From assembly GCF_021134715.1 (NCBI RefSeq), contig NC_060021.1, positions 2,356,001 to 2,420,000 on the forward strand: 64,000 nt of DNA, in the 5' to 3' direction. Made by a program: the position numbers and the translations under genes. The notes under the pieces are model-generated. The model saw only the letters and a list, made by a program, of their open reading frames with translations, searched no databases and had not been told where the DNA came from. The number at the start of each line of letters is the position of its first letter. Positions within the stretch are counted from its first letter, which is position 1. Origin of the DNA: Daphnia pulex. Its lineage: Eukaryota > Arthropoda > Branchiopoda > Diplostraca > Daphniidae. This document shows positions 5,159 through 19,282 of this stretch, one piece after another.

Positions 5159-5441
5159 TGTGATGATGAGTCACAAGAGTCAAAACACGAGAGGTGCGGT
5201 TAAAGGTGTATTGAGAAACAACCAAGACAACTGTAACACGATTACAAGCATAAGCTAGTGACCGTATACAACGAGACCTCAAATAGATCGAATGTCCGAT
5301 TTATATACGGGATGATGAGCGATGGCTTGTCTGATGGTAGCCATGCCTGTTAAAGTAATTAAGAAGGTGCGTATGGTAAACGCATCAACAAGTGTGAGAA
5401 CTTGTCAATGGCTTTGCCATATGCTGTGAATTAACATTACA
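5159..5441 (-). repeat. 3' LTR
   Basis: The plus strand starts TGTGATGATGAG and ends AACATTACA, giving TG...CA termini. By eye it is identical to 19000-19282. The sense strand contains a TATATAAAT box at 5299-5308. Confidence 0.95.
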
Positions 5442-5452
5442 CTCCTCCCCTG
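5442..5452 (-). promoter_or_regulatory. Polypurine tract (plus-strand primer site)
   Basis: On the sense strand CAGGGGAGGAG directly abuts the first base of the 3' LTR (TGTAATG...). This is the position and composition expected of the polypurine tract that primes plus-strand DNA synthesis. Confidence 0.85.
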
Positions 5453-5660
5453 CTTGGAGATGTTCCAAACTGGGAAGGGGCGTGATCTTCTAACATTGGC
5501 AAAGCACAGCATCACTACATGTAAGATTAAAAGCACAACATTGCTACATATAAGGTCACTAAAACAGGCAAGAATGGTAAAAATCACTAAACAGGCAAGA
5601 GTGGCAAAAATCTGCATAAAGGTAAATGGTCAATGCTACTGGTGATTATTGTTATGTTTT

Positions 5661-5681
5661 CCTCCCCCTTTTTTTTTTTTT
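5661..5681 (-). repeat. A13-G5 purine tract after the last ORF
   Basis: The sense strand reads thirteen A residues followed by GGGGGAGG, starting 12 nt after the stop of the 208-residue ORF. It is the shortest of the four A-tracts that follow the 3' reading frames, and it could also act as an additional polypurine primer site. Confidence 0.7.
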
Positions 5682-5693
5682 AAAAGTTTGTAA

Positions 5694-6320
5694 TCAACGA
5701 TCGTCTCCATATCGACGGTTGAGGCTGCGGAGAGCGGAAAAATACCGCTGTTTCAGTTCCTCCTGGTCGATTATGAATTGTTTGATTAAATTCAGTTGTT
5801 CCAGCGCAAGGGCCGGATTGTTCTCGGGCGTCGGACGAGTGTTAGTCTGGGGAGCTGCTGGGCCGGCAGGGGCGGCAGGCTGTTGCTCCGGCGTCTGGAC
5901 GGTGGTGGAAACGGGTCGTGGAGCCTGCGGTCTTATGGAGGGGACCACTGCTATGACCTGTCGAGTCCTATTTTTCGAAATCGGAACCGGGGAAGGTTCA
6001 TCGTCGTCGTCTGATGAATAGGGGGGAGGCGAAAATACAACGCGGTTGTATTTAATTTTAGAAGAGCGTGCTGTAGACGGCCGCTTAACGCCCCGTGTTT
6101 TCTGGTCGTCAGGAGAAGTGTACGAAGTCGATGTCCCAGGTTCCGGCTCCGGCTCGTTCGATGGAGACGGTGAAGTTTGTAAGTCATCAGACGGATAACT
6201 CCGGTATTCGGTCCTAGGAAGAGGCCATTCAATTACTCGGCCAACTACTGGTGGCGTAGTGAGTTCCACTTCGTCGTGGATGAAGTCAGGTCCAAGAAGA
6301 AGTCGACCACGTCCGGCCAT
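5694..6320 (-). CDS. Accessory protein of the retroelement, 208 aa, unknown
   Basis: This is the last reading frame before the 3' LTR. The start MAGRGRLLLG is basic and glycine-rich. The middle is disordered, rich in Pro, Ser and Asp, with a SPPPYSSDDDD segment that contains a PPxY motif, the type of short motif that recruits Nedd4-family ligases in retroviral budding. The last 35 residues form a charged helix (LIKQFIIDQEELKQRYF) that resembles the C-terminus of the neighbouring 189-residue protein. I recognise no known family. Intact length without stops in a recent element suggests it is used. The PPxY role is inference; the same sequence could be incidental in a proline-rich region. Confidence 0.7.
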   Translation of the reverse strand: MAGRGRLLLGPDFIHDEVELTTPPVVGRVIEWPLPRTEYRSYPSDDLQTSPSPSNEPEPEPGTSTSYTSPDDQKTRGVKRPSTARSSKIKYNRVVFSPPPYSSDDDDEPSPVPISKNRTRQVIAVVPSIRPQAPRPVSTTVQTPEQQPAAPAGPAAPQTNTRPTPENNPALALEQLNLIKQFIIDQEELKQRYFSALRSLNRRYGDDR

Positions 6321-6474
6321 GATGAACAGGATAAAATATGTGGTAGCGAAGTGAAGAAAGAAAAGATTTTACAGCGATATTTATAGTAGATAGTCGAAAA
6401 AGATCGCAAGAGAGAAGTTGGGGTGGTAACTAACTTAAAGAAGGTGCAGACAAGATGAATCTATATATTATTAT

Positions 6475-6476
<2 letters not shown>

Positions 6477-6509
<33 letters not shown>
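6477..6509 (-). repeat. A33 tract between accessory ORFs (sense strand)
   Basis: Thirty-three uninterrupted T on the plus strand, that is A33 in the element's sense, 60 nt downstream of the 189-residue ORF stop. It belongs to a set of A-tracts following each 3' ORF. Confidence 0.9.
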
Positions 6510-6512
<3 letters not shown>

Positions 6513-6569
6513 GACGTCAAAGTCATTAATCACTGTCAAAGACAGTAGCTAAGTCGAAGAGTAAAGTAG

Positions 6570-7139
6570 CTAAGATGAATAAATTCTTTTTCGTGCTTGC
6601 TTCAGTTGCTGGGCCTGGGAGTAAAAACGTCGATATAGTTCACGGCTGTCGCGGTTGTATTGGTTAATGAGGTCCTTCCTGTTTTGCTGATACTCCTCCT
6701 CGCTTCGGAGAAGAATTGGGGGAGCGTACATCTGCTCAGCTTCTCCGCTGCAGTCGTTGTTGGGGAGTCCTGGTGGAAGGGGGGAAACTGCTTTTTCGTC
6801 CGAGGCGAAGTTTAGTGGTAGATCAGGGTTCGGCTCCGTCGATCCGCTATCGATTGAACTTACGTCGTCGTAGTAAAGATCGTCGCTGTGTAGTGGATCT
6901 TCGTCTTCCGGATCCGCTTCGTGAAGTGTTATTAGTGAATCTGCTTCAAGGTCGATTTGTTCTTTGTTGTTAATAAATCTCCTTTCTGTTTGAAACACTA
7001 CAGTTTCGCTGCTGCTGCTAATTACTTCCGCTGGTATTTTCCTTACTCTTGCTTCTACGTCCAGGAGTACCACGGTCTTTTCTTTTCTATCAGCTACTAA
7101 CGCGAACGTTCTCTTTAGCACTTTTGCGTTGGCGTCCAT
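6570..7139 (-). CDS. Accessory protein of the retroelement, 189 aa, unknown
   Basis: The N-terminal ~60 residues look folded (MDANAKVLKRTFALVADR then KEKTVVLLDVEARVRKIP). An acidic, disordered middle follows (DPEDEDPLHSDDLYYDD), and the C-terminal ~40 residues form a strongly charged helix (LINQYNRDSRELYRRF). That helix aligns with the C-terminus of the 208-residue protein at roughly one-third identity, suggesting the two share an ancestral module or partner. A plausible splice acceptor, ACCCAAGCAG, lies just upstream of the start (about 7145). I do not recognise the family. Neighbours are the ankyrin ORF upstream and an A33 tract downstream. Confidence 0.7.
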   Translation of the reverse strand: MDANAKVLKRTFALVADRKEKTVVLLDVEARVRKIPAEVISSSSETVVFQTERRFINNKEQIDLEADSLITLHEADPEDEDPLHSDDLYYDDVSSIDSGSTEPNPDLPLNFASDEKAVSPLPPGLPNNDCSGEAEQMYAPPILLRSEEEYQQNRKDLINQYNRDSRELYRRFYSQAQQLKQARKRIYSS

Positions 7140-7237
7140 GTAAGCTGCTTGGGTAAAATCGATTCATTAGTGATGCTATGTCAAGGCAATGACTAAAAAG
7201 GCGGTAACTACGATTTATTGGCTAATTAGCATCTTTC

Positions 7238-7287
7238 TTTTTTTTTTTTTTTTTTTTAGCATTAAATGTTATTGGCTTTTTTTTTTT
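7238..7287 (-). repeat. Two A-tracts after the ankyrin ORF (sense strand)
   Basis: Plus-strand T runs at 7238-7257 (20) and 7277-7287 (11). In the sense direction these A-tracts lie 110-160 nt downstream of the ankyrin ORF stop and upstream of the 189-residue ORF. Confidence 0.85.
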
Positions 7288-7398
7288 AGGTTTTTCTTTT
7301 TGTTGTTTGTAAACAACTATTAGCTGCTACTGGTGATTACTACAACGCTTTGCTACCATTGTATCTTTTTATTATTATTATTATTATTTTTAATTCCT

Positions 7399-8838
7399 TT
7401 ATTCTAATTCGTTTAGATCGTCGTCATCTTCATTCTCGGAAGGCGTTATTTTGTTGTCGGCAATAATGTTTTTCTCGACGTCGCTGTCTGATTCGCTTGT
7501 TATCAAAGAATAGTCCCGTCGGTATCCAGGTGGTGGGGGTAGTTTTGATTTCGCTTTGTCTATTAGGCGTTTAAAATTTCGTAATTTGAGACTTGGTGCA
7601 CCGTCGTCTAGGCGTGACATTTCGGTTCTTGTAGGGTAGATGTTCTCGTTGATTTTTCGTGGCGGAATAGGGATGTGCTTAATTGGCGGTCCTTCTTCCA
7701 AGTCTGGCATATCCTCGTAGTTTCCTTTTTGGGAGGTCTCGTCCGACATTATGTTCATGGCTGCTATCGCTTTCTCGATTCTGTCAGAATTATTGTAATA
7801 AAATCTAGTGTCGAGTGTTTTATAGGCCTTTTTCCTATTTTCATGGTTGTAGAGGCGTAAATATTGATAGACGGCATTCCTGCCATCTTTTTCTGCGGCC
7901 ATGATTGGAGTTTCGTGGTTACGATTTCCAAGTTCCAGGCGGGCTCCGTGAGAAATCAATACCCTTAACGTAGGTATATCATTCACGAAGTGTGCGGGCG
8001 TGTTTCCATTATTGTCCTGTAGATTTACGTGTGCTCCGTGGTATAGTAGGATGTCGGCAATTTCATGGCGGTTTTTTTCCACTGCTAGATGGATATAAGA
8101 AAGAGATTTATGCACTTTTGTGTTGACAATGTGCTGGAATCTGTCTAGCTCTACTAGAGCCCTTATGGTTTCGATGTCGTTTCTTCTTATAGCCACTGAA
8201 ATGGGGCAGCTGAATTTTCTGTTGATTAGAAATGACTCGACTTTTGGGTTTTGGCTGAGGATGTAATCGATACAATTCCTAGCCTGATGGCTTATTGCCA
8301 AAGTCAAAGGAAATTCCTGATTAACCAGATCGTGCTCTAAAAGGTTTTTCTTGTAAATATGGACGAACCGTATACTATTTACGTCATCCCGTGAGATGAG
8401 TATTTCTGTGATTGTTCTAGCCAATCGATCTCCGCTGTAGATTGTGGCGCCCTTGTAGATCAAGTCTTCAATCATGTTAATTCGGTGTAATCGTACCGCG
8501 GTCACTAACGCCGTTTCATTCTTTGAGTTACTTTTTTCGACGTCTGCATCGTGTTCTAGGAGAATCTTGAAACATTTGTACGAATTATGTTTGATAGCTA
8601 CCAGAAGAGGCGTTTTTTGTCGATAGCTGTTCTCAATGTCCTCTGGGTGTCGCGTAAGCCAATACTTCAGCTCGGTGTGACTGTCCATCAAAACCAGTTC
8701 GTGAATTTTCGGGGTGGTTTTTTCAATTCCATGTTTCCGGTTGGGAGGAAAAGCATTTCTCCTACTCATGTGGGTAGTGCTAAAGGTCCAAATCCGTTGA
8801 CGTTCCGAGGGGGTCGTTGCAAAATCCTCTTGGTTCAT
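7399..8838 (-). CDS. Ankyrin-repeat protein encoded inside the retroelement, 479 aa
   Basis: From about residue 43 to 330 the protein is built of ankyrin repeats. Clear examples are TPLLVAIKHNSYKCFKILLE, a HLAVEKNRHEIADILLYHGA unit, and NLQDNNGNTPAHFVN followed by ISHGARLELGNRNHETPI. Ankyrin repeats bind other proteins. The ~150-residue tail is disordered and charged, ending in an acidic cluster (SENEDDDDLNELE). There is no signal peptide, so a cytosolic or nuclear place is likely. It lies between env and the small ORFs in the same orientation, inside intact LTRs, and has no introns. A captured host or viral gene is the simplest explanation; ankyrin proteins in large DNA viruses often target ubiquitin ligases or NF-kB signalling, but that role here is only inference. 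Confidence 0.88.
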   Translation of the reverse strand: MNQEDFATTPSERQRIWTFSTTHMSRRNAFPPNRKHGIEKTTPKIHELVLMDSHTELKYWLTRHPEDIENSYRQKTPLLVAIKHNSYKCFKILLEHDADVEKSNSKNETALVTAVRLHRINMIEDLIYKGATIYSGDRLARTITEILISRDDVNSIRFVHIYKKNLLEHDLVNQEFPLTLAISHQARNCIDYILSQNPKVESFLINRKFSCPISVAIRRNDIETIRALVELDRFQHIVNTKVHKSLSYIHLAVEKNRHEIADILLYHGAHVNLQDNNGNTPAHFVNDIPTLRVLISHGARLELGNRNHETPIMAAEKDGRNAVYQYLRLYNHENRKKAYKTLDTRFYYNNSDRIEKAIAAMNIMSDETSQKGNYEDMPDLEEGPPIKHIPIPPRKINENIYPTRTEMSRLDDGAPSLKLRNFKRLIDKAKSKLPPPPGYRRDYSLITSESDSDVEKNIIADNKITPSENEDDDDLNELE

Positions 8839-8890
8839 TTTTTTCTTTTCTTTTCTATGATGATATGGTTTTTTGGATATTAGAAGGTGG

Positions 8891-8905
8891 TTTTTTTTTT
8901 TTTTT
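8891..8905 (-). repeat. A15 tract after env (sense strand)
   Basis: Fifteen T on the plus strand, about 80 nt downstream of the env stop in the sense direction and about 50 nt upstream of the ankyrin ORF start. Confidence 0.85.
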
Positions 8906-8986
8906 AAACATATTTTTGTATATAGTTATTCAAAACATTTCTACTCTACTCCATGCTGCGATAAGTATGTTGTCAATTGTCAGCAG

Positions 8987-11900
8987 TTACAGATGAATTT
9001 GATTAAGGAAACTATTTGCTCGGCTTATTGATTCGACAGGCGCACTTGGTGGCATAACATATGGATACATATTTCCTGGCATTATAACTGGATGGTTTGT
9101 GGCATATGCCATGTGATGACTCTGCTCTATTGGTATTTCTACTGCTGCACGGCGATTTCGGCGTTGTTGAAACGAATCTATCATGGCTGGTATAGGGTTG
9201 ACTCGTGCAAAAATATACGCGACTAGGATAAACATTATAAATCCTATCGTAGTAAAAACGATTATTTTTAGATAATCTGTCCAAGAGTACATGTCTCCAA
9301 TTTTCGTATCCTGTTTCTCTGACATTATCATTCCAGCTAACGAATTGTCGTGCGTTTCCTCTATCCTACCTATCAATTCGTTTAAAACATTGAGTCGTTC
9401 TAAGTCTGTTACTGAATGAGCTGGGTGTCCTTTTAAAGCGTAGTTAAAATCGTTAAGGGAGAGCTCTTCAAACTGCGATACAAGATTTAAATTTGGTGTG
9501 TGTATATTCGGCGTTTGCTCCGTCCAATCGGCGTGGGTTGTATTGTGTTCCCAGTGAAATGTTTTTCCGTTTAGATTGACAAGGTTTGTTTTCCAAAAAC
9601 AATTGGAAAATGGGTGGATTGACCATCCATCTGTTCCAATTGTATAGTTGTTATTTTTGTAAACCGTGTATGGCTGGAATCCACATTTCGTTTCTATTGC
9701 TCCGACTGTAACTTGTTTCTTCTCGCATTCCTGTAGAAGTAAAGATTGTCCGAGTCCTTGAAGTCGTGAACAAGTTGGTAATTCCAATGCTGCTGCGGCT
9801 AGAATTCCATTTGTTTGAGACAGTGTCATGGCTTGCAATCTTCTCAGCACAGACACCTGGCAGTATATTTGTCGTATCTCTCTTGCCAGCTCATTTTCGT
9901 GTTGAATCTCGATGCTCTGCTTATATTGCTCGTGGAAGGATTGGATAATGGGTTTGATGATCTCGCTGATTTCTTCTTTGTTTGCTGTTGTTGGTTTATT
10001 TTGTGTGGTGTTTTTGCTTTTGTCGGTTGAGTCGTTCAGGTAAGGTAATGTGGCTTTTGTTGGTATAGGTATAGTTTTGGAATCGTTCTGGTGAGGTATG
10101 ATGGTTCTGGTGGGATGAGGTAAGGGTAAGGGTTGTTTTGTAACTTTTTGGTTGGGACTTGTTGTTTTTGTTTGGGGTGGAGTGTTGCTTTGTGTAGAAT
10201 TACGTGGGCGTGGTACAGGTGGTTTTGTTGGTTCGGTTAAAGATATGGGTTTTGAAGTTGTTGTCGATGTCGTTGTCGTTGTTGTTGTGGTTGTTGCTGT
10301 GGTTGTTGTTGTTGATGTCACTTTTGGTGCAGGTTTTGTCGGTGCAGGTACTGGAGGATCTGTAGGTCTTGTTTGGTTCATCGTTGGCGGGTTGCTTGAA
10401 TTATAATTGCTTCCTGCATCTGGCCTCGCTATTTCGCCTGCGAAGACTGTTGTTAGATTTTTCTGTTGATTATTCCCTAGATTTTGTTGTTTGATTTGTG
10501 ACGCTGCTGCAACTTTAGTTTCATTTATGATCGGTGTTTCTACGGCTTTTATCTCCAATATTTCAGGGTACTCTTCTTTGTTGGTCTCTGTTTTTGTATC
10601 TGGGACTGGCGTTGTTTCTTCTTTGTTGGTCTCCGTTGTTGTATCTGGAACTGGCGTTGTTTCTGGTAACGTTTCATCTTCAATGAGGCTCATGTTATTT
10701 CGATTCTGGAAGATTGGCGGCATCGTCGGGAATGGCATATCATGAATGGAAAAGTTTTTATGCCACTCGAGAATCCTGGAAGGTATTAAGGTGGGATGCT
10801 CTTCGGAATTTATTAGATTAGGGTTGTATGCTTCGAATTTCCATTTCTGATGTCTGGGTTTCTGGTCATCGTTGCATAATCCTAATCTTAACTTTCCTTG
10901 GTGAAATTCAATGCATTTGATTGAGTTTACATCCATTAATTGTCCAGTTATCTCGTTGGCTCCCCATCTCATACTATCTGGGTTGCATTGCTCGAGAACT
11001 GCGTTCTTTTCGTTTATTCTTAAACAATGATTGGTGTCGAACTTCCTGATGGTATAGTCGATGTCGTATTCAAACAGCTGATCTGGAAACTGCATCGGGT
11101 CTCCTGGTGATTGACATGGCTCCATAGAGATGTTTAATTTTCCTTGTATATTGTTCATACACATCGGCGTTTTTCCATTTTTGTTTTTGTTCATAAGTTG
11201 TCCCCAATTAAATATATGGTCTATATTTAATAGGTTTTCCGCAGGGCTGCTTCTGAATTCTTCGTGGACGAATTCCCATTCTTCTATTGTGATGTTTGGA
11301 TATGCTTGACGTAGGTTGTAGTCCGTATTACGTTGATCAAATCTCCACATCTGCTTGATTGAATGGGGCTCCATTTCACAAGGTTCAAGTGACACCTGGT
11401 CCTTGACTGCTGTAAGACATCCTTTCGATTGTGTTTCCATGATGTACATTCGGTAGTCATCATAAATCCAAGTCGAGTGGGGAATCGAGCAATCTTTGAA
11501 GAGCAGGTGGTTTGGGTTGTTTACTGTCAGACAGTAACTGGTTCCATTTGTTGTAAAACGAATTGAATAGTCCGTGGAAAATTCGAAAAGCTGCTGTGTT
11601 TTCGGCCAAATTCCTAGCTCGCTCCATGTAGTTTTGTTGATCGGAACTCGAGGCATCAGGAACAGATGATTTTCGATGTCGGAAGTTGTTACCACGTATC
11701 TTTTGTCTTCATATTTCTCGTCGAACTCGGTGGGTGGAAATGATGCAAGGGGATTGAGGTGTCCCCATGCAAACACGTGGCTATTTTCGTTGTTAATTTG
11801 TTTAAGCTGTCTTGTGTGTCGAGTTTTTGATGTTGGGTTTGTTAAGAAGAATTTTTCGATCTCGTCTTCAAAAACTATGTGGGTATCCGGTATGCCAATT

Positions 11901-12271
11901 ATTTTGTAAGAATTAGACATACCGGCGCAAAGGTTGACTTTTTCGGGACCAAATAAAATTTCAACTTGTTTTTCGGTATCTAATATTCTACCTGTCTTTA
12001 TCTGTTTTAATCTTGGGTTTCTGTCTATTTTAATGAGAGATATTTTACCTGTTCCCTTAAATTGTTTCTTTTCTTGACATTTTACCTCGACTGTTGTAGG
12101 AACGTTTGGTATGCGCCACACAATAGTATTGTGGTTAACGATAAGGTGTTCGTTTTTCAACGATACGTTATGCGATCCAAATGGTGATAGAAGTGGTCCA
12201 TCGGTGGACTCTTGTCTAATCTCAATGTCTTGGGCTAAACAATTCACTACTGAATATTCTTTTATTGACAT
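8987..12271 (-). CDS. env: Env-like membrane glycoprotein, main frame, 1094 aa
   Basis: A large type-I membrane glycoprotein-like frame. Residues about 225-490 hold two ricin-B-like stretches with QxW-type motifs (STWIY, QMWRF near 307, QKWKF near 475) and regularly spaced Cys, suggesting a beta-trefoil sugar-binding region. Residues about 535-770 are a Thr/Pro-rich mucin-like stalk with a long Thr run. A Cys-rich ectodomain follows (about 800-920), then a single membrane segment (about 1001-1022) and a ~70-residue tail. Many N-glycosylation sequons are present. The frame begins without a signal peptide; that lies in the upstream frame at 12286-12723, offset by -1. The membrane-proximal region recalls glycoproteins of arthropod negative-strand RNA viruses (chuvirus type), a low-certainty impression. 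No frame repair is attempted here. Confidence 0.82.
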   Translation of the reverse strand: MSIKEYSVVNCLAQDIEIRQESTDGPLLSPFGSHNVSLKNEHLIVNHNTIVWRIPNVPTTVEVKCQEKKQFKGTGKISLIKIDRNPRLKQIKTGRILDTEKQVEILFGPEKVNLCAGMSNSYKIIGIPDTHIVFEDEIEKFFLTNPTSKTRHTRQLKQINNENSHVFAWGHLNPLASFPPTEFDEKYEDKRYVVTTSDIENHLFLMPRVPINKTTWSELGIWPKTQQLFEFSTDYSIRFTTNGTSYCLTVNNPNHLLFKDCSIPHSTWIYDDYRMYIMETQSKGCLTAVKDQVSLEPCEMEPHSIKQMWRFDQRNTDYNLRQAYPNITIEEWEFVHEEFRSSPAENLLNIDHIFNWGQLMNKNKNGKTPMCMNNIQGKLNISMEPCQSPGDPMQFPDQLFEYDIDYTIRKFDTNHCLRINEKNAVLEQCNPDSMRWGANEITGQLMDVNSIKCIEFHQGKLRLGLCNDDQKPRHQKWKFEAYNPNLINSEEHPTLIPSRILEWHKNFSIHDMPFPTMPPIFQNRNNMSLIEDETLPETTPVPDTTTETNKEETTPVPDTKTETNKEEYPEILEIKAVETPIINETKVAAASQIKQQNLGNNQQKNLTTVFAGEIARPDAGSNYNSSNPPTMNQTRPTDPPVPAPTKPAPKVTSTTTTTATTTTTTTTTSTTTSKPISLTEPTKPPVPRPRNSTQSNTPPQTKTTSPNQKVTKQPLPLPHPTRTIIPHQNDSKTIPIPTKATLPYLNDSTDKSKNTTQNKPTTANKEEISEIIKPIIQSFHEQYKQSIEIQHENELAREIRQIYCQVSVLRRLQAMTLSQTNGILAAAALELPTCSRLQGLGQSLLLQECEKKQVTVGAIETKCGFQPYTVYKNNNYTIGTDGWSIHPFSNCFWKTNLVNLNGKTFHWEHNTTHADWTEQTPNIHTPNLNLVSQFEELSLNDFNYALKGHPAHSVTDLERLNVLNELIGRIEETHDNSLAGMIMSEKQDTKIGDMYSWTDYLKIIVFTTIGFIMFILVAYIFARVNPIPAMIDSFQQRRNRRAAVEIPIEQSHHMAYATNHPVIMPGNMYPYVMPPSAPVESISRANSFLNQIHL

Positions 12272-12285
12272 CCATTTTCCCTCAC

Positions 12286-12723
12286 CTACTGGTTTTGTCT
12301 ATAACTATATGTTTTGCCGTTAACTATATTCTTATTTCCTGCGCAGTTTAATAGCGATTTCATTTCCCAACATTCTTGGGGACTGACTTCTTTCGTCGTG
12401 TGAAAATGCTCTGTGTCATATGATCCTACCCAAAATGATCCTGTGATCTTTTTCGTTTCTATCCATTGCGAGCATACGAGTCCTTCTACTCGCAGGTCTG
12501 TTTGTATTTTAGTAGCCACATAATAGGTTACTAATTTGCTCATAACTTTCTGTTCATCCTCTTTATCAGTGTGATTTTTGAAACAATAATCTGGGTCTGT
12601 AAGGTCAAGCAGACCTCTCGTGACTGGTTTCGAGCAGTCGCAAATTTGTATATTAAGCGTCAAAATAGGCGTAAAGACAATCGACAAGTAGCATGCTGTG
12701 ATAAGAACAGCGTTGTTTCCCAT
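12286..12723 (-). CDS. Env N-terminal frame with signal peptide, 145 aa
   Basis: The protein begins with a hydrophobic leader (VLITACYLSIVFTPILTL) followed by a Cys-rich ectodomain start (QICDCSKP, CSQW, ECWEM, LNCAG). It ends at a TAG 12 nt upstream of the first ATG of the 1094-residue env frame; that second frame (-1 relative) is already open across this stop. The two therefore look like one glycoprotein gene interrupted by a one-base offset, or two parts joined by ribosomal slippage. No canonical slippery heptamer is seen; the overlap reads ACAAAACCAG. A good splice acceptor abuts the ATG (see 12724), supporting this as the true env start. Confidence 0.72.
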   Translation of the reverse strand: MGNNAVLITACYLSIVFTPILTLNIQICDCSKPVTRGLLDLTDPDYCFKNHTDKEDEQKVMSKLVTYYVATKIQTDLRVEGLVCSQWIETKKITGSFWVGSYDTEHFHTTKEVSPQECWEMKSLLNCAGNKNIVNGKTYSYRQNQ

Positions 12724-12742
12724 CTAATTTGGAAAAACAAAA
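12724..12742 (-). promoter_or_regulatory. Splice acceptor abutting the env start codon
   Basis: The sense strand reads TTTTGTTTTTCCAAATTAG directly followed by ATG. A pyrimidine-rich tract and terminal AG touching the start codon make a strong acceptor for a spliced env mRNA, paired with the donor at 18836-18844. Confidence 0.65.
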
Positions 12743-12764
12743 TACGATTACTGTTTGTTAAGCT

Positions 12765-15700
12765 TTAATTTCTATTTCTAAGGGGGTATCTATGTGACAC
12801 ACGTATTTGTGTCGGTGGAATTACGGGGTTGTTATTAGGTAATTCCTGATCTGTAACTCTTGGTTGGTTTGGGGGTCTACCTCCACGTTTTGGTTGTGGG
12901 GGAATTACAACCCCTGTTATCTTCGGAGGTCTACCTCTTCTTTTTGTCGCTGTTACGACTTCTTTTACTTTTGGAGGCCTACCTCTTTTCTTTCCTACTT
13001 TAATTTGTATCTTCTTAATGGTTTTACGTCTTTTCTTAATAATTATTGGGTTAGGGCTAGTTATATTATTGGGAGTGCTGGTCACTAATTTTAACCTATT
13101 TACATGTACTATATATTTCCCTTCGTCCTCAGTGTTATTTATTTCATCTGTTATTTTGATAATTTCATAGTTAAGGTCCGATATTTTTCTATTTATTTTA
13201 TACGGTCCTAACCATCTATTATTAAATTTTCCTGGGGTAGAATGGGCTTTTAAGAGTACGTGATCGTTTACGTTATACTTAACTAATTTACTACCTTTGT
13301 CATATAGTCGTTTTTGCTTTGATTGAACTTTCTCTAATCGTTCTTTCGAACGTTTTAGAGCTCTTTTCCATTGTTTATCGTATTCATCTGCATCATCTTC
13401 AAAAACGTCTATGTCATCATTGATAGAAATATCGCTTGGCACTACTGCTTCGCGTTTAAAAAATAGATAGAAAGGGCAACAGTCTGTACTAGTTTGCTTT
13501 GCAGTGTTATATGCGAAAGTTACAAAGTCGAGATATTTATCCCATGACTCTGGTTCATCGTTCACATAACATGCGAGCATATCGCACAGAGTCCTGTTGA
13601 ATCTTTCCACTAGTCCATCCGTCTGCGGGTGGTAACTTGTAGTTTTAATTTGCTTAATTTTAAAAAGAATGCATATTTTTGAAATGAGTTTTGAAAGAAA
13701 ATTAGTTCCTTTATCTGTCAATACTCTTGCTGGAGGACCGAATTTTGTATAGACTTTTTTGACTAAATGTTCTGCTATCGTATGCGCTTTCTGGTCTTTC
13801 ATTGGTATGGTCATTACATATCTACTTGCGTAATCAGACAAAACTAAAATATATTTGTTTCCTTCACTACTTTCCGTAACCGGCCCTACTATGTCCATTG
13901 CGACTTGTTCCCAAATGTTTGCTACTAAAGGCAATGGCTTAAGTGGGGCTTTAGTCGACCCATAGGCCTTACGTTTTGCACATGCAATACAATTGTTTAC
14001 ATATTCAGTAACGTCTTTGCCTAGTCCGGGCCAAACGAATTGGCGTTTTACTCTCGCTAGCGTCTTTGCTATCCCTAAATGCCCTGCTAAAATATGATCA
14101 TGATTCAATTCTAAAATTTCATTAATTTTCTCTTTTGGCACAACTATTTTTCCTTCATTTGTTATTAAAATGCCTTCATTATTGAAACGGAATTCATTAT
14201 ATTCTTTCTTATTGCTTTCTTCTAGTTTCTGTATTATTTCTTTACAATAATTATCATTTCTCTGTGCTAATATTATATCATTTTGAACCTTTTCTTCTTT
14301 TACTAATATTATCGATCCTATTGATGGTAATGGAGTCCTACTTAATGCATCGGCATTTTGATTTTCCTGGCCAGGACGATGTAGGACTATCATATCGTAT
14401 GATTGCATTTCATACGACCAACGAGCTAATCTGCCATGCGGATCTTTTTTCTTCATTAATGTCTCCAATGGTTTGTGATCTGTGTATACTTTAAAACTTC
14501 TTCCGTATAAGTATGGTCTAAACTGCTCTAATGCATAAACAATCGCTAAACATTCTTTTTCTGATACATTCCAATTTCGTTCTCTTTCATTTAAATGTCT
14601 TGACGCATAAGCTATAACTACTTCCTGTTCTCCGTGGGCCTGTGTTGGATCTGATTCTGAGGGGGGTATGTTCTGTATCTGTGCTAACACAGCTCCAATC
14701 CCGTATCCTGAGGCATCTGTGTATACTAAAAATTCCCTGGTGAAATCTGGATACCTTAAGAGTGGATTGTTGGTTAGCGAATTCTTGATACGTCGAAAGG
14801 CGTCCCTTTCGTTTTCTTCCCAAATCCAAGTCGATGACTTCTTTGTCAGTTCTGTTAAATAATGCGCTATCTCTGCGTAACTTCGAACGAATTTTCGATA
14901 ATAATTAACTAATCCTAAAAACGAGAGTAGTTGCTTTACGTTTTGTGGTTCGGGGTAGTTTAGAATTGATGTAATTTTCTTATTGTCTGGATGAAAACCA
15001 TTTACTGTAATCACGTGACCTAAGTATTTAATTTTTGTTTTGAAAAAATCGCACTTACTTAATTTTAATTTTAATCCTTCATTTGCCAGAAGCTTAAAAA
15101 TAATTTTCAAATGTTTTATGTGGTCATCAAGCGTTTTACTGAAAACGATGATGTCGTCAAGGTAAACAAGTGTAAATTCGTACAGCACGTCCTTTAATAC
15201 ATTGTTCATTTCTCTTTGGAATGTGCCTGGTGCGTTGCACAAACCAAATGGCATACAGTTAAATTCATACAAGCCATACTCACAAATAAAAGCTGTTTTA
15301 TATTTATGTTTTTCTTCGATCTCGATTTGCCAGTATCCACTGAGCAAATCCAGAGTCGAGAAATACCTGGCACCGTGTAGACTATCAATAATTAGCTGAA
15401 TGTTTGGTATGGGGTACCTGTCTTTTATGGTTACACTGTTTAACTCACGATAATCCACGCAAAATCTCATCTGTCCTTCTTCTTTTTTAGCTACTAAAAG
15501 AATAGGTGATGCAAAAGGGCTTGTACTGGGCCTAATTATATTATGTTTTAACATGTCTTCTATTTGTTTTTTTACAACAAGTCGTAGCCTTTCAGGCGTT
15601 CTCCTCATAGGCATAACGTTCGGAAGCTTGGTTGTACGTATAAGGTGCTTGACTGATTTTGCTTTTCCTAGCTCATTTAAATTCTCAGTAAAAAGCGAAA

Positions 15701-16328
15701 AATTTGAAATTAAAAGGTTCTTTAAATTTTCCCTGTGTGTTGTTGGTATGCCTTCTAAATTAAATTGGGGTGGATCAACTATGCTAATTGAGTTAATCTG
15801 TAATGGCGGTATTATAAGTTTCTTTAACTCGTTGTCTTGTTTATAGCTAATCGATCGTTCGCTAGGATTTATTATTATTTCGTTAGTTGCCAAGAAATCG
15901 TAACCTAAAATACATCCTTCTTCTAACTCTGACATTACATAAAATGGATGTTTAAACGAGTGTCTACGAGCTAGTCTAATATTTAGCTCGTAGCATCCTC
16001 GTGGTTTGACTAACTCTCCTGATACTGTTCTAAAAAGCTGTGTGCTATCGTTGGCGGTATTTATTTCTTTAACTTCTCCATAGGGTACATTTATAAGTAG
16101 TCGATGTGCAAGGAAACTAGCTGAGGCACCTGTATCTACTAAAGCTTGTGTCTTTAGACCAGAAAAACTCACAGGTATACGCATTAACTGCGTAACGCTA
16201 CATATTACGGGTATATTTATATTTACAACACTGTTACTCGATAAACCTACTGCTGTTCTGTTGACGGGGGCGGGGGCACGCTGCGACATTCTCGCGCGTA
16301 GTGGCCTCGCTTTCCACAAGCATAACAC
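12765..16328 (-). CDS. pol: Pol polyprotein: protease, reverse transcriptase, RNase H, integrase
   Basis: Domains in order: aspartic protease with DTGA at residues 65-68; reverse transcriptase with the VDYREL region near 291 and the catalytic YLDD at 389-392; RNase H with TDAS at 537-540; integrase with an HHCC zinc-binding region (H746/H750, C780/C783) and the catalytic triad D812, D872, E908 with 35 residues between the last two. The C-terminal ~90 residues carry three AT-hook-like cores, GRPPK near 1116 and 1132 and GGRPP near 1149, in a lysine/arginine-rich tail. The frame overlaps gag by 82 nt in the -1 register, so translation by -1 frameshifting is expected and the annotated ATG is probably not used. 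No stops or frameshifts are seen, so the enzyme set looks intact. Confidence 0.95.
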   Translation of the reverse strand: MLCLWKARPLRARMSQRAPAPVNRTAVGLSSNSVVNINIPVICSVTQLMRIPVSFSGLKTQALVDTGASASFLAHRLLINVPYGEVKEINTANDSTQLFRTVSGELVKPRGCYELNIRLARRHSFKHPFYVMSELEEGCILGYDFLATNEIIINPSERSISYKQDNELKKLIIPPLQINSISIVDPPQFNLEGIPTTHRENLKNLLISNFSLFTENLNELGKAKSVKHLIRTTKLPNVMPMRRTPERLRLVVKKQIEDMLKHNIIRPSTSPFASPILLVAKKEEGQMRFCVDYRELNSVTIKDRYPIPNIQLIIDSLHGARYFSTLDLLSGYWQIEIEEKHKYKTAFICEYGLYEFNCMPFGLCNAPGTFQREMNNVLKDVLYEFTLVYLDDIIVFSKTLDDHIKHLKIIFKLLANEGLKLKLSKCDFFKTKIKYLGHVITVNGFHPDNKKITSILNYPEPQNVKQLLSFLGLVNYYRKFVRSYAEIAHYLTELTKKSSTWIWEENERDAFRRIKNSLTNNPLLRYPDFTREFLVYTDASGYGIGAVLAQIQNIPPSESDPTQAHGEQEVVIAYASRHLNERERNWNVSEKECLAIVYALEQFRPYLYGRSFKVYTDHKPLETLMKKKDPHGRLARWSYEMQSYDMIVLHRPGQENQNADALSRTPLPSIGSIILVKEEKVQNDIILAQRNDNYCKEIIQKLEESNKKEYNEFRFNNEGILITNEGKIVVPKEKINEILELNHDHILAGHLGIAKTLARVKRQFVWPGLGKDVTEYVNNCIACAKRKAYGSTKAPLKPLPLVANIWEQVAMDIVGPVTESSEGNKYILVLSDYASRYVMTIPMKDQKAHTIAEHLVKKVYTKFGPPARVLTDKGTNFLSKLISKICILFKIKQIKTTSYHPQTDGLVERFNRTLCDMLACYVNDEPESWDKYLDFVTFAYNTAKQTSTDCCPFYLFFKREAVVPSDISINDDIDVFEDDADEYDKQWKRALKRSKERLEKVQSKQKRLYDKGSKLVKYNVNDHVLLKAHSTPGKFNNRWLGPYKINRKISDLNYEIIKITDEINNTEDEGKYIVHVNRLKLVTSTPNNITSPNPIIIKKRRKTIKKIQIKVGKKRGRPPKVKEVVTATKRRGRPPKITGVVIPPQPKRGGRPPNQPRVTDQELPNNNPVIPPTQIRVSHRYPLRNRN

Positions 16329-18835
16329 TCTATATGTCTCTTATTTCTAAATCCTTGGGCTGGGTTATACCAAGCGTTATGCTGTGGCCTAGCTCCAGGG
16401 GGACCTGAGGTAACGAAGTTATTCTGGCGCGGTACCTGATGGGCACGAAACGTTTGGTTTCGAAAATGCTGGGGATATTCACTTAAATTCTGAAATCTAC
16501 GACGAGGATTAAACATAGGATTAAAATTTTGGGGACGCTGAAATTGTCCTTGTGATCTGTTTGAATAATTTTGTGGTGGTGGAGTTGGCTCTCTTCTCGG
16601 ACGGTTATCTAGTGTATCATTATATCTGTTACCACTAGAACTACGTGATCTATGGTGTTGATTATTCGTACCTCTAGATCGAGGAATATTTCTATCCGCG
16701 CTGTGTTGGCGGCTTGGGGGGTGCTGAAAACGGATCCGATTTTCCGAATTGGACCGTCTACGATCGCCGGAAGGTGATCTGTGTCTGTTAAAGGCGTCGG
16801 CAACTGCTATTGAGGGAAAATCAATCTCGTTGTTTTCCTGTGGAGCATTTTTACCGATAGTTAGACCGGCTAACTGTTTCTCTAAATGAACAATCTTTGT
16901 TTTCTGCCGCAAGATCTCTATATCTTGCTCGTTATCGTGTGCAGAGATACCTGCTATAGTGGCCTTTAAACTCTTATCTTCATTCTGTTCCATTCTATTA
17001 ACTAAAGTTTCTGCGGCGTAGGCGTTTTCGCATACGTCTTCGTAAGCACTATCAACATCCATGCGGCTCCAAACTATTTTCAATATTTTAGGCAAGAGAC
17101 CCTTTAAAAGAATTTTTTGTTTAGCTTCGCCTCTCATTTGACTCAGAGATATTGCTAATGCCTTAGCTTCGTTCGTCGCTTTGTCACCTAATGTAATTTC
17201 TTTTCCATGAATGATGTCATATAACTGATTAATTCTACTAACGAAAGTTTGTGTGCTTTGATCGGGGGTCTGCCGAAGCTCGTTTAATTGTTTTCTTAAA
17301 TTTTCTAACTCTGTTTCTGTAAGAAATCTATTTATTAAAGCTTTTTCCCATGCATCGTAATCTTCCTCATCTTGTGCTCTTTCCATATAATCACTATGCC
17401 AATCCGCAGCATCTCCTCTTAGTCTATCTGAAAAATATTTTATTTTATCTTTCTTCTCCCACCCTGCGCTTTGTGCGACTCTTTCCGCATCTTTTAACCA
17501 ATTATTAACTAACTGCTCTCCTCTTTTGCCTTTAAAAATCGGAATAGATTTCCGTTCGTCCTGTGAATATAATTCACGTAAATGGCTCTTAGTTATTGGT
17601 GCATCTTCATTACTATTGCCTAACGTCATGGTTATAATATTAGTTGTTTGAGTGGGCTTTGAATGGGTTTGCGTATCTGCTACTAAAGTCGATTTCAAAT
17701 GTTTTTGAATGTATAAATCTTTAGCTTTAATTTCTTGTTCGAGGTCAGAGATTTTATTGGATAAGTCTCGTTTGGTTGTTTTCAAAATTTTTACGCTTGC
17801 TTCTTTGGAGTTGGCTTCAATTTGCAATGTGTCTAGCTTCTGAGATAGTTCTTGGTTTTTATTTGTAAGTGTTGTTACGTCGTCTTCTGTTAATTTACTT
17901 GCGTTCTTCAAAGCTTCGTGTGCGTTGTCTAATAGATTGTAGCTATGGTTTAGTTGTTTTATTTTATCTTCAGTATCTTCTTTAAGTTGTGATAGAGAAT
18001 TCCTTAAATCATTTATGCAGTCGTTCTGTCCTATGATTTCGCTCTTAGCTTTTTCTAGATCGGTTTTAGCTGTCTCGTATTCTGTCAAAAATGTTTTACT
18101 CTCATCGCTTGCCTGACTTTCTTTGGGTCTATTATTAAAATCTGCTATTAAAGTTGCTTGTTTAAAATTTGTTCGGGTTAATGTTTCTACTTCTGCTGTT
18201 AAACGGGTGTTTTCTAGATAAGAATCGGCTACTTTCTTTGAAAATTCTCTCCTTACTTTATCTACCTCTTTTTCAGTCTTTTTCGTTTCGTTCGCTACGT
18301 CTTGTTCAAGATTCTTTGCATACTCATCTAATGCTAATTGTTTGAAAAGAAGTTCCCTCTTAAATATTTTAAATGCTTTATTCCGAAAATCTACTTCTCG
18401 ACTATGAGCTTCTCTAACATTTTGTAACAAAGGGTTAAATTTATTGGGGTCTGCTTTTAATTCTACGAAATATGTCCCTAATTTTTCTAAAACTTTTTCT
18501 TTAGCCTCACCGGTAAGATAGACTGAACTTCCAAACTCCTTCTTATGCAATTCAAATGTATACTGTTTCAAAAAATGATAAACTTGACCTGTGACTTCCT
18601 TTCTTTTTGCAATATAACTACTTCGTGTTAAGCGTTTATCTGAGGTTTCATCTATATTACTTTTACAAAGACTTATTAAATTTGACCAATGGGTAACAAA
18701 ATTGTTTCTAACTTTTAGTACACTATCAGCTAAGGAATTTACGTACGCGTCTTCTTCTAGGTCTATCTCATCAATTAAAGACTCATTAATAGCTGTAAAC
18801 GAAGTGTCGCTAATTGTTGTTTGAGGATTCGTCAT
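16247..18835 (-). CDS. gag: Gag polyprotein, 862 aa, with N-terminal coiled coil
   Basis: Residues about 1-160 are helical and charged. About 165-380 form a long coiled coil rich in Glu, Lys and Leu (DLEKAKSEIIGQ, NKISDLEQEIKAKDL). About 410-560 is the retrotransposon capsid-type region (IPIFKGKRGEQLVNNWLKDA, DRLRGDAADWHSDY, EKALINRFL). About 690-835 is Arg/Gln-rich nucleocapsid sequence, and one CCHC zinc knuckle sits at 837-850 (CYACGKRGHYAREC). Ordinary gypsy Gag proteins are about half this length; the extra part is the coiled-coil N-terminal half. An internal Met at about residue 403 lies just before the capsid region and might give a shorter product. The start is favoured because a splice donor and short leader precede it. 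Confidence 0.92.
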   Translation of the reverse strand: MTNPQTTISDTSFTAINESLIDEIDLEEDAYVNSLADSVLKVRNNFVTHWSNLISLCKSNIDETSDKRLTRSSYIAKRKEVTGQVYHFLKQYTFELHKKEFGSSVYLTGEAKEKVLEKLGTYFVELKADPNKFNPLLQNVREAHSREVDFRNKAFKIFKRELLFKQLALDEYAKNLEQDVANETKKTEKEVDKVRREFSKKVADSYLENTRLTAEVETLTRTNFKQATLIADFNNRPKESQASDESKTFLTEYETAKTDLEKAKSEIIGQNDCINDLRNSLSQLKEDTEDKIKQLNHSYNLLDNAHEALKNASKLTEDDVTTLTNKNQELSQKLDTLQIEANSKEASVKILKTTKRDLSNKISDLEQEIKAKDLYIQKHLKSTLVADTQTHSKPTQTTNIITMTLGNSNEDAPITKSHLRELYSQDERKSIPIFKGKRGEQLVNNWLKDAERVAQSAGWEKKDKIKYFSDRLRGDAADWHSDYMERAQDEEDYDAWEKALINRFLTETELENLRKQLNELRQTPDQSTQTFVSRINQLYDIIHGKEITLGDKATNEAKALAISLSQMRGEAKQKILLKGLLPKILKIVWSRMDVDSAYEDVCENAYAAETLVNRMEQNEDKSLKATIAGISAHDNEQDIEILRQKTKIVHLEKQLAGLTIGKNAPQENNEIDFPSIAVADAFNRHRSPSGDRRRSNSENRIRFQHPPSRQHSADRNIPRSRGTNNQHHRSRSSSGNRYNDTLDNRPRREPTPPPQNYSNRSQGQFQRPQNFNPMFNPRRRFQNLSEYPQHFRNQTFRAHQVPRQNNFVTSGPPGARPQHNAWYNPAQGFRNKRHIECYACGKRGHYARECRSVPPPPSTEQQ

Positions 18836-18844
18836 TCACTTACA
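18836..18844 (-). promoter_or_regulatory. Splice donor just upstream of gag
   Basis: The sense strand reads T|GTAAGTGA followed directly by the gag ATG. It matches the donor consensus and sits in the 5' leader, where retroviruses place the donor for env mRNA. Splicing to 12723 would remove gag-pol. Confidence 0.7.
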
Positions 18845-18981
18845 GTTTTGAGAAAATTGATGTTTCCTTCCTCGATGTAGATGATCTCGTTGTGGGTTGT
18901 CTGGTCGTCTGGTCCTAGGTGGTGTGGCAGATAGGGGCGATGTTCCTTCTCGTTGACTCACGGCAGGTCTTGAAGTCCAAA

Positions 18982-18996
18982 CTGGCACGTTCACCA
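18982..18996 (-). promoter_or_regulatory. Primer-binding site
   Basis: The sense strand reads TGGTGAACGTGCCAG four bases inside the 5' LTR. Starting with TGG, it would pair with the CCA end of a host tRNA. I could not assign the tRNA species from memory. Confidence 0.6.
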
Positions 18997-18999
18997 ATT

Positions 19000-19282
19000 T
19001 GTGATGATGAGTCACAAGAGTCAAAACACGAGAGGTGCGGTTAAAGGTGTATTGAGAAACAACCAAGACAACTGTAACACGATTACAAGCATAAGCTAGT
19101 GACCGTATACAACGAGACCTCAAATAGATCGAATGTCCGATTTATATACGGGATGATGAGCGATGGCTTGTCTGATGGTAGCCATGCCTGTTAAAGTAAT
19201 TAAGAAGGTGCGTATGGTAAACGCATCAACAAGTGTGAGAACTTGTCAATGGCTTTGCCATATGCTGTGAATTAACATTACA
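19000..19282 (-). repeat. 5' LTR
   Basis: By eye identical to 5159-5441, with TG...CA ends. On the sense strand it begins TGTAATGTTAATTC and ends at the primer-binding site. Confidence 0.95.
19140..19149 (-). promoter_or_regulatory. TATA box in the 5' LTR
   Basis: GTATATAAAT on the sense strand inside the 5' LTR is the likely core promoter for the element. It lies about 140 nt before the end of the LTR. Confidence 0.5.

Follow-up and report, generated by a model that had tools for sequence, protein, structure and literature searches.

In a stretch of Daphnia pulex DNA, a retrotransposon of the Ty3/gypsy type, here called family A, carries three accessory genes (ANK, ORF2 and ORF3) between its envelope gene and its 3' long terminal repeat (LTR). 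These genes belong to the element and travel inside its LTR pair, and they are held by purifying selection rather than left to neutral decay, although single old copies do decay. The element, about 14.1 kb long (14124 bases), lies on the minus strand of the window, by which we mean the whole stretch of 64,000 nucleotides analysed (C5:2356001-2420000 of a 133-Mb assembly of 13 contigs), and in the sense direction reads 5' LTR, gag, pol, env, ANK, ORF2, ORF3, 3' LTR (Table 1). With fair confidence, we regard it as a member of a complex retrovirus-like, env-bearing Ty3/gypsy lineage that would carry selected genes serving the element itself, an exchangeable ORF3 block and an ankyrin protein acting as a host adaptor.

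A preliminary description, made from the sequence alone, had reported three open frames on one strand between env and the 3' LTR, one of them with visible ankyrin repeats, in a complete element whose identical LTRs indicated that it had not decayed since insertion. The three frames were found again, all on the minus strand, and Pfam recognises the ankyrin repeats of ANK in four stretches (PF12796, E 3.8e-26). The LTRs are identical at 283/283 positions, a 4-bp target-site duplication (TTAG) flanks the element on either side as in other Ty3/gypsy LTR elements, and a TGG beginning 3 bases past the 5' LTR is a candidate primer-binding site. By Pfam the 1187-aa pol frame has the Ty3/gypsy order of protease, reverse transcriptase (RT), RNase H and integrase, and env follows pol as in errantivirus-like, env-bearing gypsy elements. 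The window copy is a young insertion, but to call it complete was too strong, as it is not wholly intact: its env is split into two pieces in different frames, the main open frame being 1103 aa long, while the copies on C2, C9 and C8:770k have env open over 1243-1245 aa. Because the window env is interrupted, identical LTRs did not go with undamaged env, and the claim that nothing had decayed stands for the three accessory genes, which are open.

Accessory genes within LTR pairs and across lineages

The LTR search of the whole genome gave 18 matches, 12 of which make six pairs (C5, C2, C9, C8:766k, C8:5768k and C8:7039k), the remainder being one lone full-length LTR (C12:3122k) and five that are partial and diverged. 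ANK lies within all six pairs and both ORF2 and ORF3 within five of the six, so the co-occurrence that the preliminary description proposed as a check holds, and the element has conserved genes besides gag, pol and env inside its LTRs, as complex retroviruses do. In the pair that has diverged furthest (C8:7.04M, its LTRs sharing 87-89% identity with those of the window) about 400 bases separate ANK from the LTR behind it, and the family-A gene searches gave no ORF2 or ORF3 match at this copy (L037, G000:C8:7052200-7058000). Full-length open ANK frames are present in three of the six copies. On the other side of the balance, ANK is frame-broken in the other three, and ORF3 in one of the five copies that have it (C8:766k).

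ANK also appears to be older than family A. The RT search of the genome returned 99 matches, with identities to the window of 99-100% in family A, 81-85% in B, 58-60% in C, 56-57% in C' and about 47-53% in lineages D and E, the remaining matches being lower, and the env search returned 53. Among 20 post-env pieces chosen by env ranking, with the window excluded, ANK follows env in 17 (16 by ORF-level match, the weakest at E 5.9e-6, and L046 as a broken ANK). RT identity to the window in these ANK-bearing pieces runs from 100% down to about 51%, and ANK is thereby placed behind env in the sister lineages B, C and C' and in part of D. Two pieces picked for their ANK matches (L073 and L074) hold further ANK frames behind env. 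No ankyrin frame was seen in five pieces of the outer lineages E and F, read by eye for frames of at least 80 aa (in one of them, L080, the piece leaves the stretch nearer env uncovered), and ANK searches with the window, C' and C queries, whose results are lower bounds, list no match at these five.

An RT tree of 21 rows, all elements from the D. pulex genome, supports A with B at 100/100, C joining A+B at 87/93, C' with D at 99/99 and the E+F group at 100/99, and the simplest history would be one gain of ANK with one loss in D_C5. Several points count against so tidy a picture. The branch uniting the ANK bearers with the ANK-less D_C5 is supported at just 74/73, ANK was not found behind env in three of the 20 pieces (L049 and L050, both of lineage D, and L048, whose env contains stops), and several of the 20 are near-identical copies. 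When the C' ANK was used as query, the first matches outside its own group were two D-type ANKs, followed by loci C5:4162582 and C8:5747870, ahead of the rest. With the C ANK, by contrast, A-type ANKs rank level with other ankyrins, and for this reason the case for a common origin of the ANK genes rests mainly on their position; ankyrin sequence by itself does not prove a single origin.

Some individual loci deserve mention. At L041 (G000:C12:2816000-2824000) a second ANK frame (L041:5221-6624), 83% identical to the first in amino acids, lies downstream of the first ANK-ORF2 pair, and between the two ANK frames there is a PPPY-bearing frame that looks ORF2-like by eye. The D-type pieces L049 and L050, on C5, have a frame of 252-353 aa behind env in place of ANK, and that of L050 matched no Pfam family at 0.1. 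The ANK relatives P0001, P0005 and P0006 represent 54, 82 and 85 member sequences, respectively, in JGI or ENA data.

Selection, block exchange and a promoter-like region

Codons were compared pairwise by the Nei-Gojobori method in pairs with at least 30% amino acid identity (ANK 16/66, ORF2 21/21, ORF3 10/15). Across the three genes together, the proportion of silent differences (pS) exceeded that of replacement differences (pN) in 46 of 47 pairs, which are not independent of one another, and this is not the pattern of neutral decay across copies. The ratio of replacement to silent rates (omega) is given only where the silent distance (dS) is finite, the longest distances being saturated at silent sites: 0.05, 0.14, 0.19 and 0.24 for ANK, 0.22, 0.28, 0.35 and 0.36 for ORF2, and 0.15, 0.16, 0.46, 0.47, 0.52, 0.53 and 2.48 for ORF3. 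The last value comes from the one pair that speaks against selection, the window ORF3 compared with C8:5.77M, in which pN exceeds pS (Fisher P 0.26). Between families A and B, identity is 81-85% in RT, 54% in the N-terminal half and 69% in the C-terminal part of env, 45-55% in ANK and 41-45% in ORF2; the accessory genes have diverged more quickly than RT but are still open.

Lineage E also has relatives of ORF3, in elements that read pol, then a small gene whose product has a transmembrane (TM)-like C-terminus, then ORF3 and env. The frame between pol and ORF3, its TM-like C-terminus judged by eye, occurs at L029 and L032 (both on the reverse strand) and at L030. The block at L029 is 83% identical in DNA to window positions 6487-6022 over 471 aligned bases, while the L029 RT is 50% identical to that of the window, and that at L026 is 90% identical to positions 6470-5680 over 793 aligned bases; L026, in which no RT was seen, is classed as E-type by its 84% identity to L029 over the 545 bases just upstream of the block. 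The shared block begins where a run of 33 A ends, and a run of 13 A starts where the match to L026 stops (5680). ORF3 has moved between lineages as a block, with ends at poly(A) runs in the closer match (L026), and since the ORF3 search listed no match at family-B loci, the donor to family A was probably an element of type E. All five homopolymer runs of at least 10 in the element are of sense-strand A and sit in the spaces separating env, the accessory genes and the 3' LTR, and the 49,876 window bases outside the element hold 13 such runs (A 9, T 3, G 1). Two considerations weaken the reading of the A runs as boundaries, namely that the L029 match stops inside ORF3 (6022) and not at an A run, and that sense-strand A runs abound in noncoding DNA of these elements, so that chance may partly account for their placement at the ends of the block.

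The block also includes 167 noncoding bases upstream of ORF3, in which the window and L029 are identical at 141/165 positions, compared with 38/53 (72%) of the fourfold-degenerate sites in the first 101 ORF3 codons (Fisher 0.038). A TATAAATA box (a TATA box at 6385) stands 65 bases before the ORF3 ATG, and a 48-base core around this box and a CACTTC motif is identical at 47/48 positions. This suggests, with moderate strength, that the region is constrained beyond the protein, and it lends some support to the likeness to the accessory region of complex retroviruses seen in the preliminary description. The core itself was chosen by eye, however, identity outside it is 94/117, and an equally good 48-base window arose in 73 of 2000 shuffles of the matches, all of which weaken the promoter reading. 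A TATAWA motif is present in 8/16 of the regions upstream of accessory frames (shuffle mean 2.7, with 0/500 shuffles reaching 8; in these comparisons the B ANK was taken to start at its second Met (L038:222) rather than at the one at 180). A general claim from this motif is weak because the opposite strand has it in 5/16, and ORF3 is the better promoter case.

Protein features and known parallels

Beyond its ankyrin repeats, a type of repeat that binds proteins, ANK shows no enzyme domain in Pfam. Pfam also revealed no F-box or PRANC domain, the C-terminal mark of poxvirus ankyrin/F-box proteins, in the window ANK at E 1 or in three other ANKs at 0.1. When the ANK profile was compared with solved structures, the best matches were generic ankyrins and designed ankyrin proteins, with no chain named I-kappa-B among the best 60 of 320, and a scan of viral contigs with ANK found no relatives. 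For ORF2 no Pfam match exceeds a curated cut-off, and for ORF3 no match was obtained at E 1. ORF2 has an isoelectric point of 4.7 (4.3-4.6 in its B relatives, 6.1 in one old copy) and conserved N- and C-terminal ends, from which a regulatory role can be no more than a guess. A relationship between ORF2 and ORF3 was considered and is unsupported, the profile comparison giving a probability of 0.3%.

Two motifs stand out in the ANK tail: PPxY, which families A and D have, and a SEESD-like acidic motif, which is present in A, B and their relatives. PPxY and PSAP are motifs with late-domain and ligase meanings; the window gag, pol and env lack PPxY, and the env tail has one PSAP. PPxY occurs in 8/18 accessory proteins, where 1.0 would be expected from shuffled residues. 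This enrichment has to be set against the lack of independence among the 18 proteins and against the absence of PPxY from lineage C, from the tested B and C' ANK proteins, from the window ORF2 and from both E ORF3 proteins tested. As a fixed hallmark of the accessory genes the motif was rejected, being missing from lineage C and variable within B.

The env protein has a TM segment near its C-terminus, read by eye, and a Ricin_B_lectin domain present in 12/14 of its database relatives, among them the Daphnia magna protein P0042. Compared with solved structures, the env sequence gave a single match, a glycosyl transferase (E 0.027), over the lectin region. A sugar-binding domain inside a retroelement envelope looks unusual.

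Among complex retroviruses, spumaviruses are the ones that the Daphnia element would most resemble in arrangement, since they too have accessory genes that follow env and precede the 3' LTR, and they have an internal promoter. The Daphnia core, however, lies between genes and not inside env, and its putative role as a promoter is suggested by conservation. Poxviruses and polydnaviruses carry ankyrin proteins too, and by analogy the Daphnia gene could be compared with these, although the Pfam domains of the poxvirus type named above are lacking from it at E 1. Errantiviruses and other metazoan env-bearing gypsy elements share the order gag, pol, env.

The nearest precedent that we found for ankyrin in a gypsy-like element is planarian Burro, a giant gypsy-like LTR element with ankyrin repeats inside its polyprotein (PMC6431247). 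The two share gypsy-type pol, an env-like region and, besides ankyrin repeats, further host-interaction domains, but Burro exceeds 30 kb in total and has its ankyrin in a 4873-aa polyprotein led by gag, with env in frame between gag and pol, whereas the Daphnia element, at 14 kb, has ANK as a separate frame after env and so is not of the Burro type. Bdelloid rotifer LTR elements with a captured ORF3 likewise have extra genes behind pol, common to unrelated lineages, and these include a GDSL esterase and a DEDDy exonuclease, mostly replacing env (PMC5408684); in Daphnia the additions behind env belong to no known enzyme family, and there is evidence on which block was exchanged and where it ends. 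Neither 'ankyrin' nor 'accessory' occurs in the main texts of PMC12992720 and PMC13172572, and a term search of PMC2996953 found neither of these nor 'envelope'. Among the best-ranked papers listed in literature searches, no title or opening of an abstract described a separate ankyrin frame behind the env of an LTR element, but the env-gypsy survey of Chary and Hayashi 2025 (eLife 108449) may report such frames. The statement in the preliminary description that no described gypsy family has this set of genes hence holds for a separate post-env ANK, among the papers listed, and has to be qualified by Burro, which has ankyrin. Overall, what that description observed was confirmed and its interpretation supported, with corrections on env and on the Burro precedent.

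Table 1 Features of the family-A element and their positions in the window.
Feature	Positions	Strand	Basis
Whole element, family A	5159..19282	-	LTR pair and TTAG flanks
5' LTR, with TATATAAA motif at LTR position 135	19000..19282	-	LTR comparison
gag, 862 aa, Retrotrans_gag and CCHC knuckle, no PPxY	16247..18835	-	Frames, Pfam
pol: aspartyl protease, RT, RNase H, integrase; listed frame start overlaps gag	12765..16328	-	Frames, Pfam
env N-terminal piece, 145 aa, severed by frame interruption	12286..12723	-	Frames, copy comparison
env main part, 1094 aa, two Ricin_B_lectin stretches, PSAP at residue 1075	8987..12271	-	Pfam, motif scan
ANK accessory gene of 479 aa; ankyrin repeats followed by PPxY tail with acidic end	7399..8838	-	
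ORF2 accessory gene of 189 aa, acidic, with conserved blocks at both termini	6570..7139	-	
ORF3 accessory gene of 208 aa, rich in Pro, with PPPY motif	5694..6320	-	
ORF3 upstream region with TATAAATA box	6321..6487	-	Alignment to lineage-E locus L029
ORF3 exchange block common to L029 and L026	5680..6487	-	DNA alignment
Poly(A) run of 33, upstream end of ORF3 block	6477..6509	-	
Poly(A) run of 13, downstream end of L026-shared block	5669..5681	-	
3' LTR	5159..5441	-	

Outside the element, the window also holds a repetitive, Thr/Ser-rich frame of 132 aa on the minus strand (24903-24505).

Competing explanations and significance

Under the reading that we favour, that of a complex retrovirus-like lineage, ORF3 would be transcribed from an internal promoter in the conserved, TATA-containing upstream core, and ANK and ORF2 would be made from spliced or similar short mRNAs. 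Reverse transcriptases are known to switch templates at homopolymers, and blocks may have been exchanged as the enzyme switched at A runs between two co-packaged RNAs. ANK would act as a soluble adaptor, gripping a host protein with its repeats, and its tail, through PPxY in families A and D, may take it to a Nedd4-type ubiquitin ligase or to the budding machinery, thereby countering host defence or helping release; this adaptor role is the least certain step. ORF2 and ORF3 could be small regulatory or budding helpers. A fuller version, in which Daphnia has a whole clade of complex env-bearing Ty3/gypsy retroviruses that evolved independently of those of vertebrates, with poly(A)-flanked accessory blocks, at least one internal promoter, swaps by template switching at A runs and an ankyrin adaptor antagonising the host, is one that we offer tentatively.

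That the three genes are host sequences captured by chance, transduced passengers persisting only through the youth of the insertion, would fit the identical LTRs and the poly(A) runs behind each gene, which captured polyadenylated mRNAs would leave. It is largely contradicted by the selection seen in nearly every pair between copies and lineages, as well as by the constant position of ANK across lineages with RT identities of 51-85%; no close host donor was seen among the weak ankyrin matches (E above 1e-10, not each placed), which are 23-39% identical, and the ORF3 block holds sequence upstream of the presumed transcription start, implying that it was not taken from that mRNA. We consider this account very improbable. 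A less demanding alternative, somewhat doubtful but one to be taken seriously, is that ANK and its partners are ordinary extra frames of an LTR element, like the ORF3 of bdelloid elements or the aORFs of plant ones, expressed by splicing only, with the TATA core and the block ends at poly(A) runs being incidental. Extra frames are widespread in LTR elements, according to PMC5408684 and PMC7264820, in B and in one C type an acceptor-like YAG precedes the start codon of ANK by 1-3 bases (by eye, with no control), and the opposite-strand TATAWA motifs and the just moderately unusual clustering of identity in the core point the same way; the higher identity of the ORF3 upstream region than of the fourfold sites in the same block does not.

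Two further proposals concern what ANK does. By analogy with the vankyrins of polydnaviruses, it could be a mimic of an I-kappa-B-type host gene that blocks Rel/NF-kappa-B immune signalling, as its ankyrin-only architecture by Pfam, its status as a separate gene and its faster change than RT and env would allow; generic and designed ankyrins rather than I-kappa-B chains lead its structure matches, however, and we think the proposal quite unlikely. It could instead be a virion or Gag partner in assembly, not directed against host defence, a role for which PPxY in the accessory proteins and its lack in the window gag, pol and env would speak; the presence of the motif varies between lineages, and this role seems to us improbable, if a little less so.

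Host-managing accessory genes are best known from vertebrate retroviruses. If the complex retrovirus-like reading is true, several selected accessory genes behind env in an invertebrate Ty3/gypsy element would mean that such a lifestyle evolved more than once. Daphnia would then be a tractable animal in which to ask what accessory genes fight, and the ORF3 block would offer a concrete, testable route for gene trade between retroelements.

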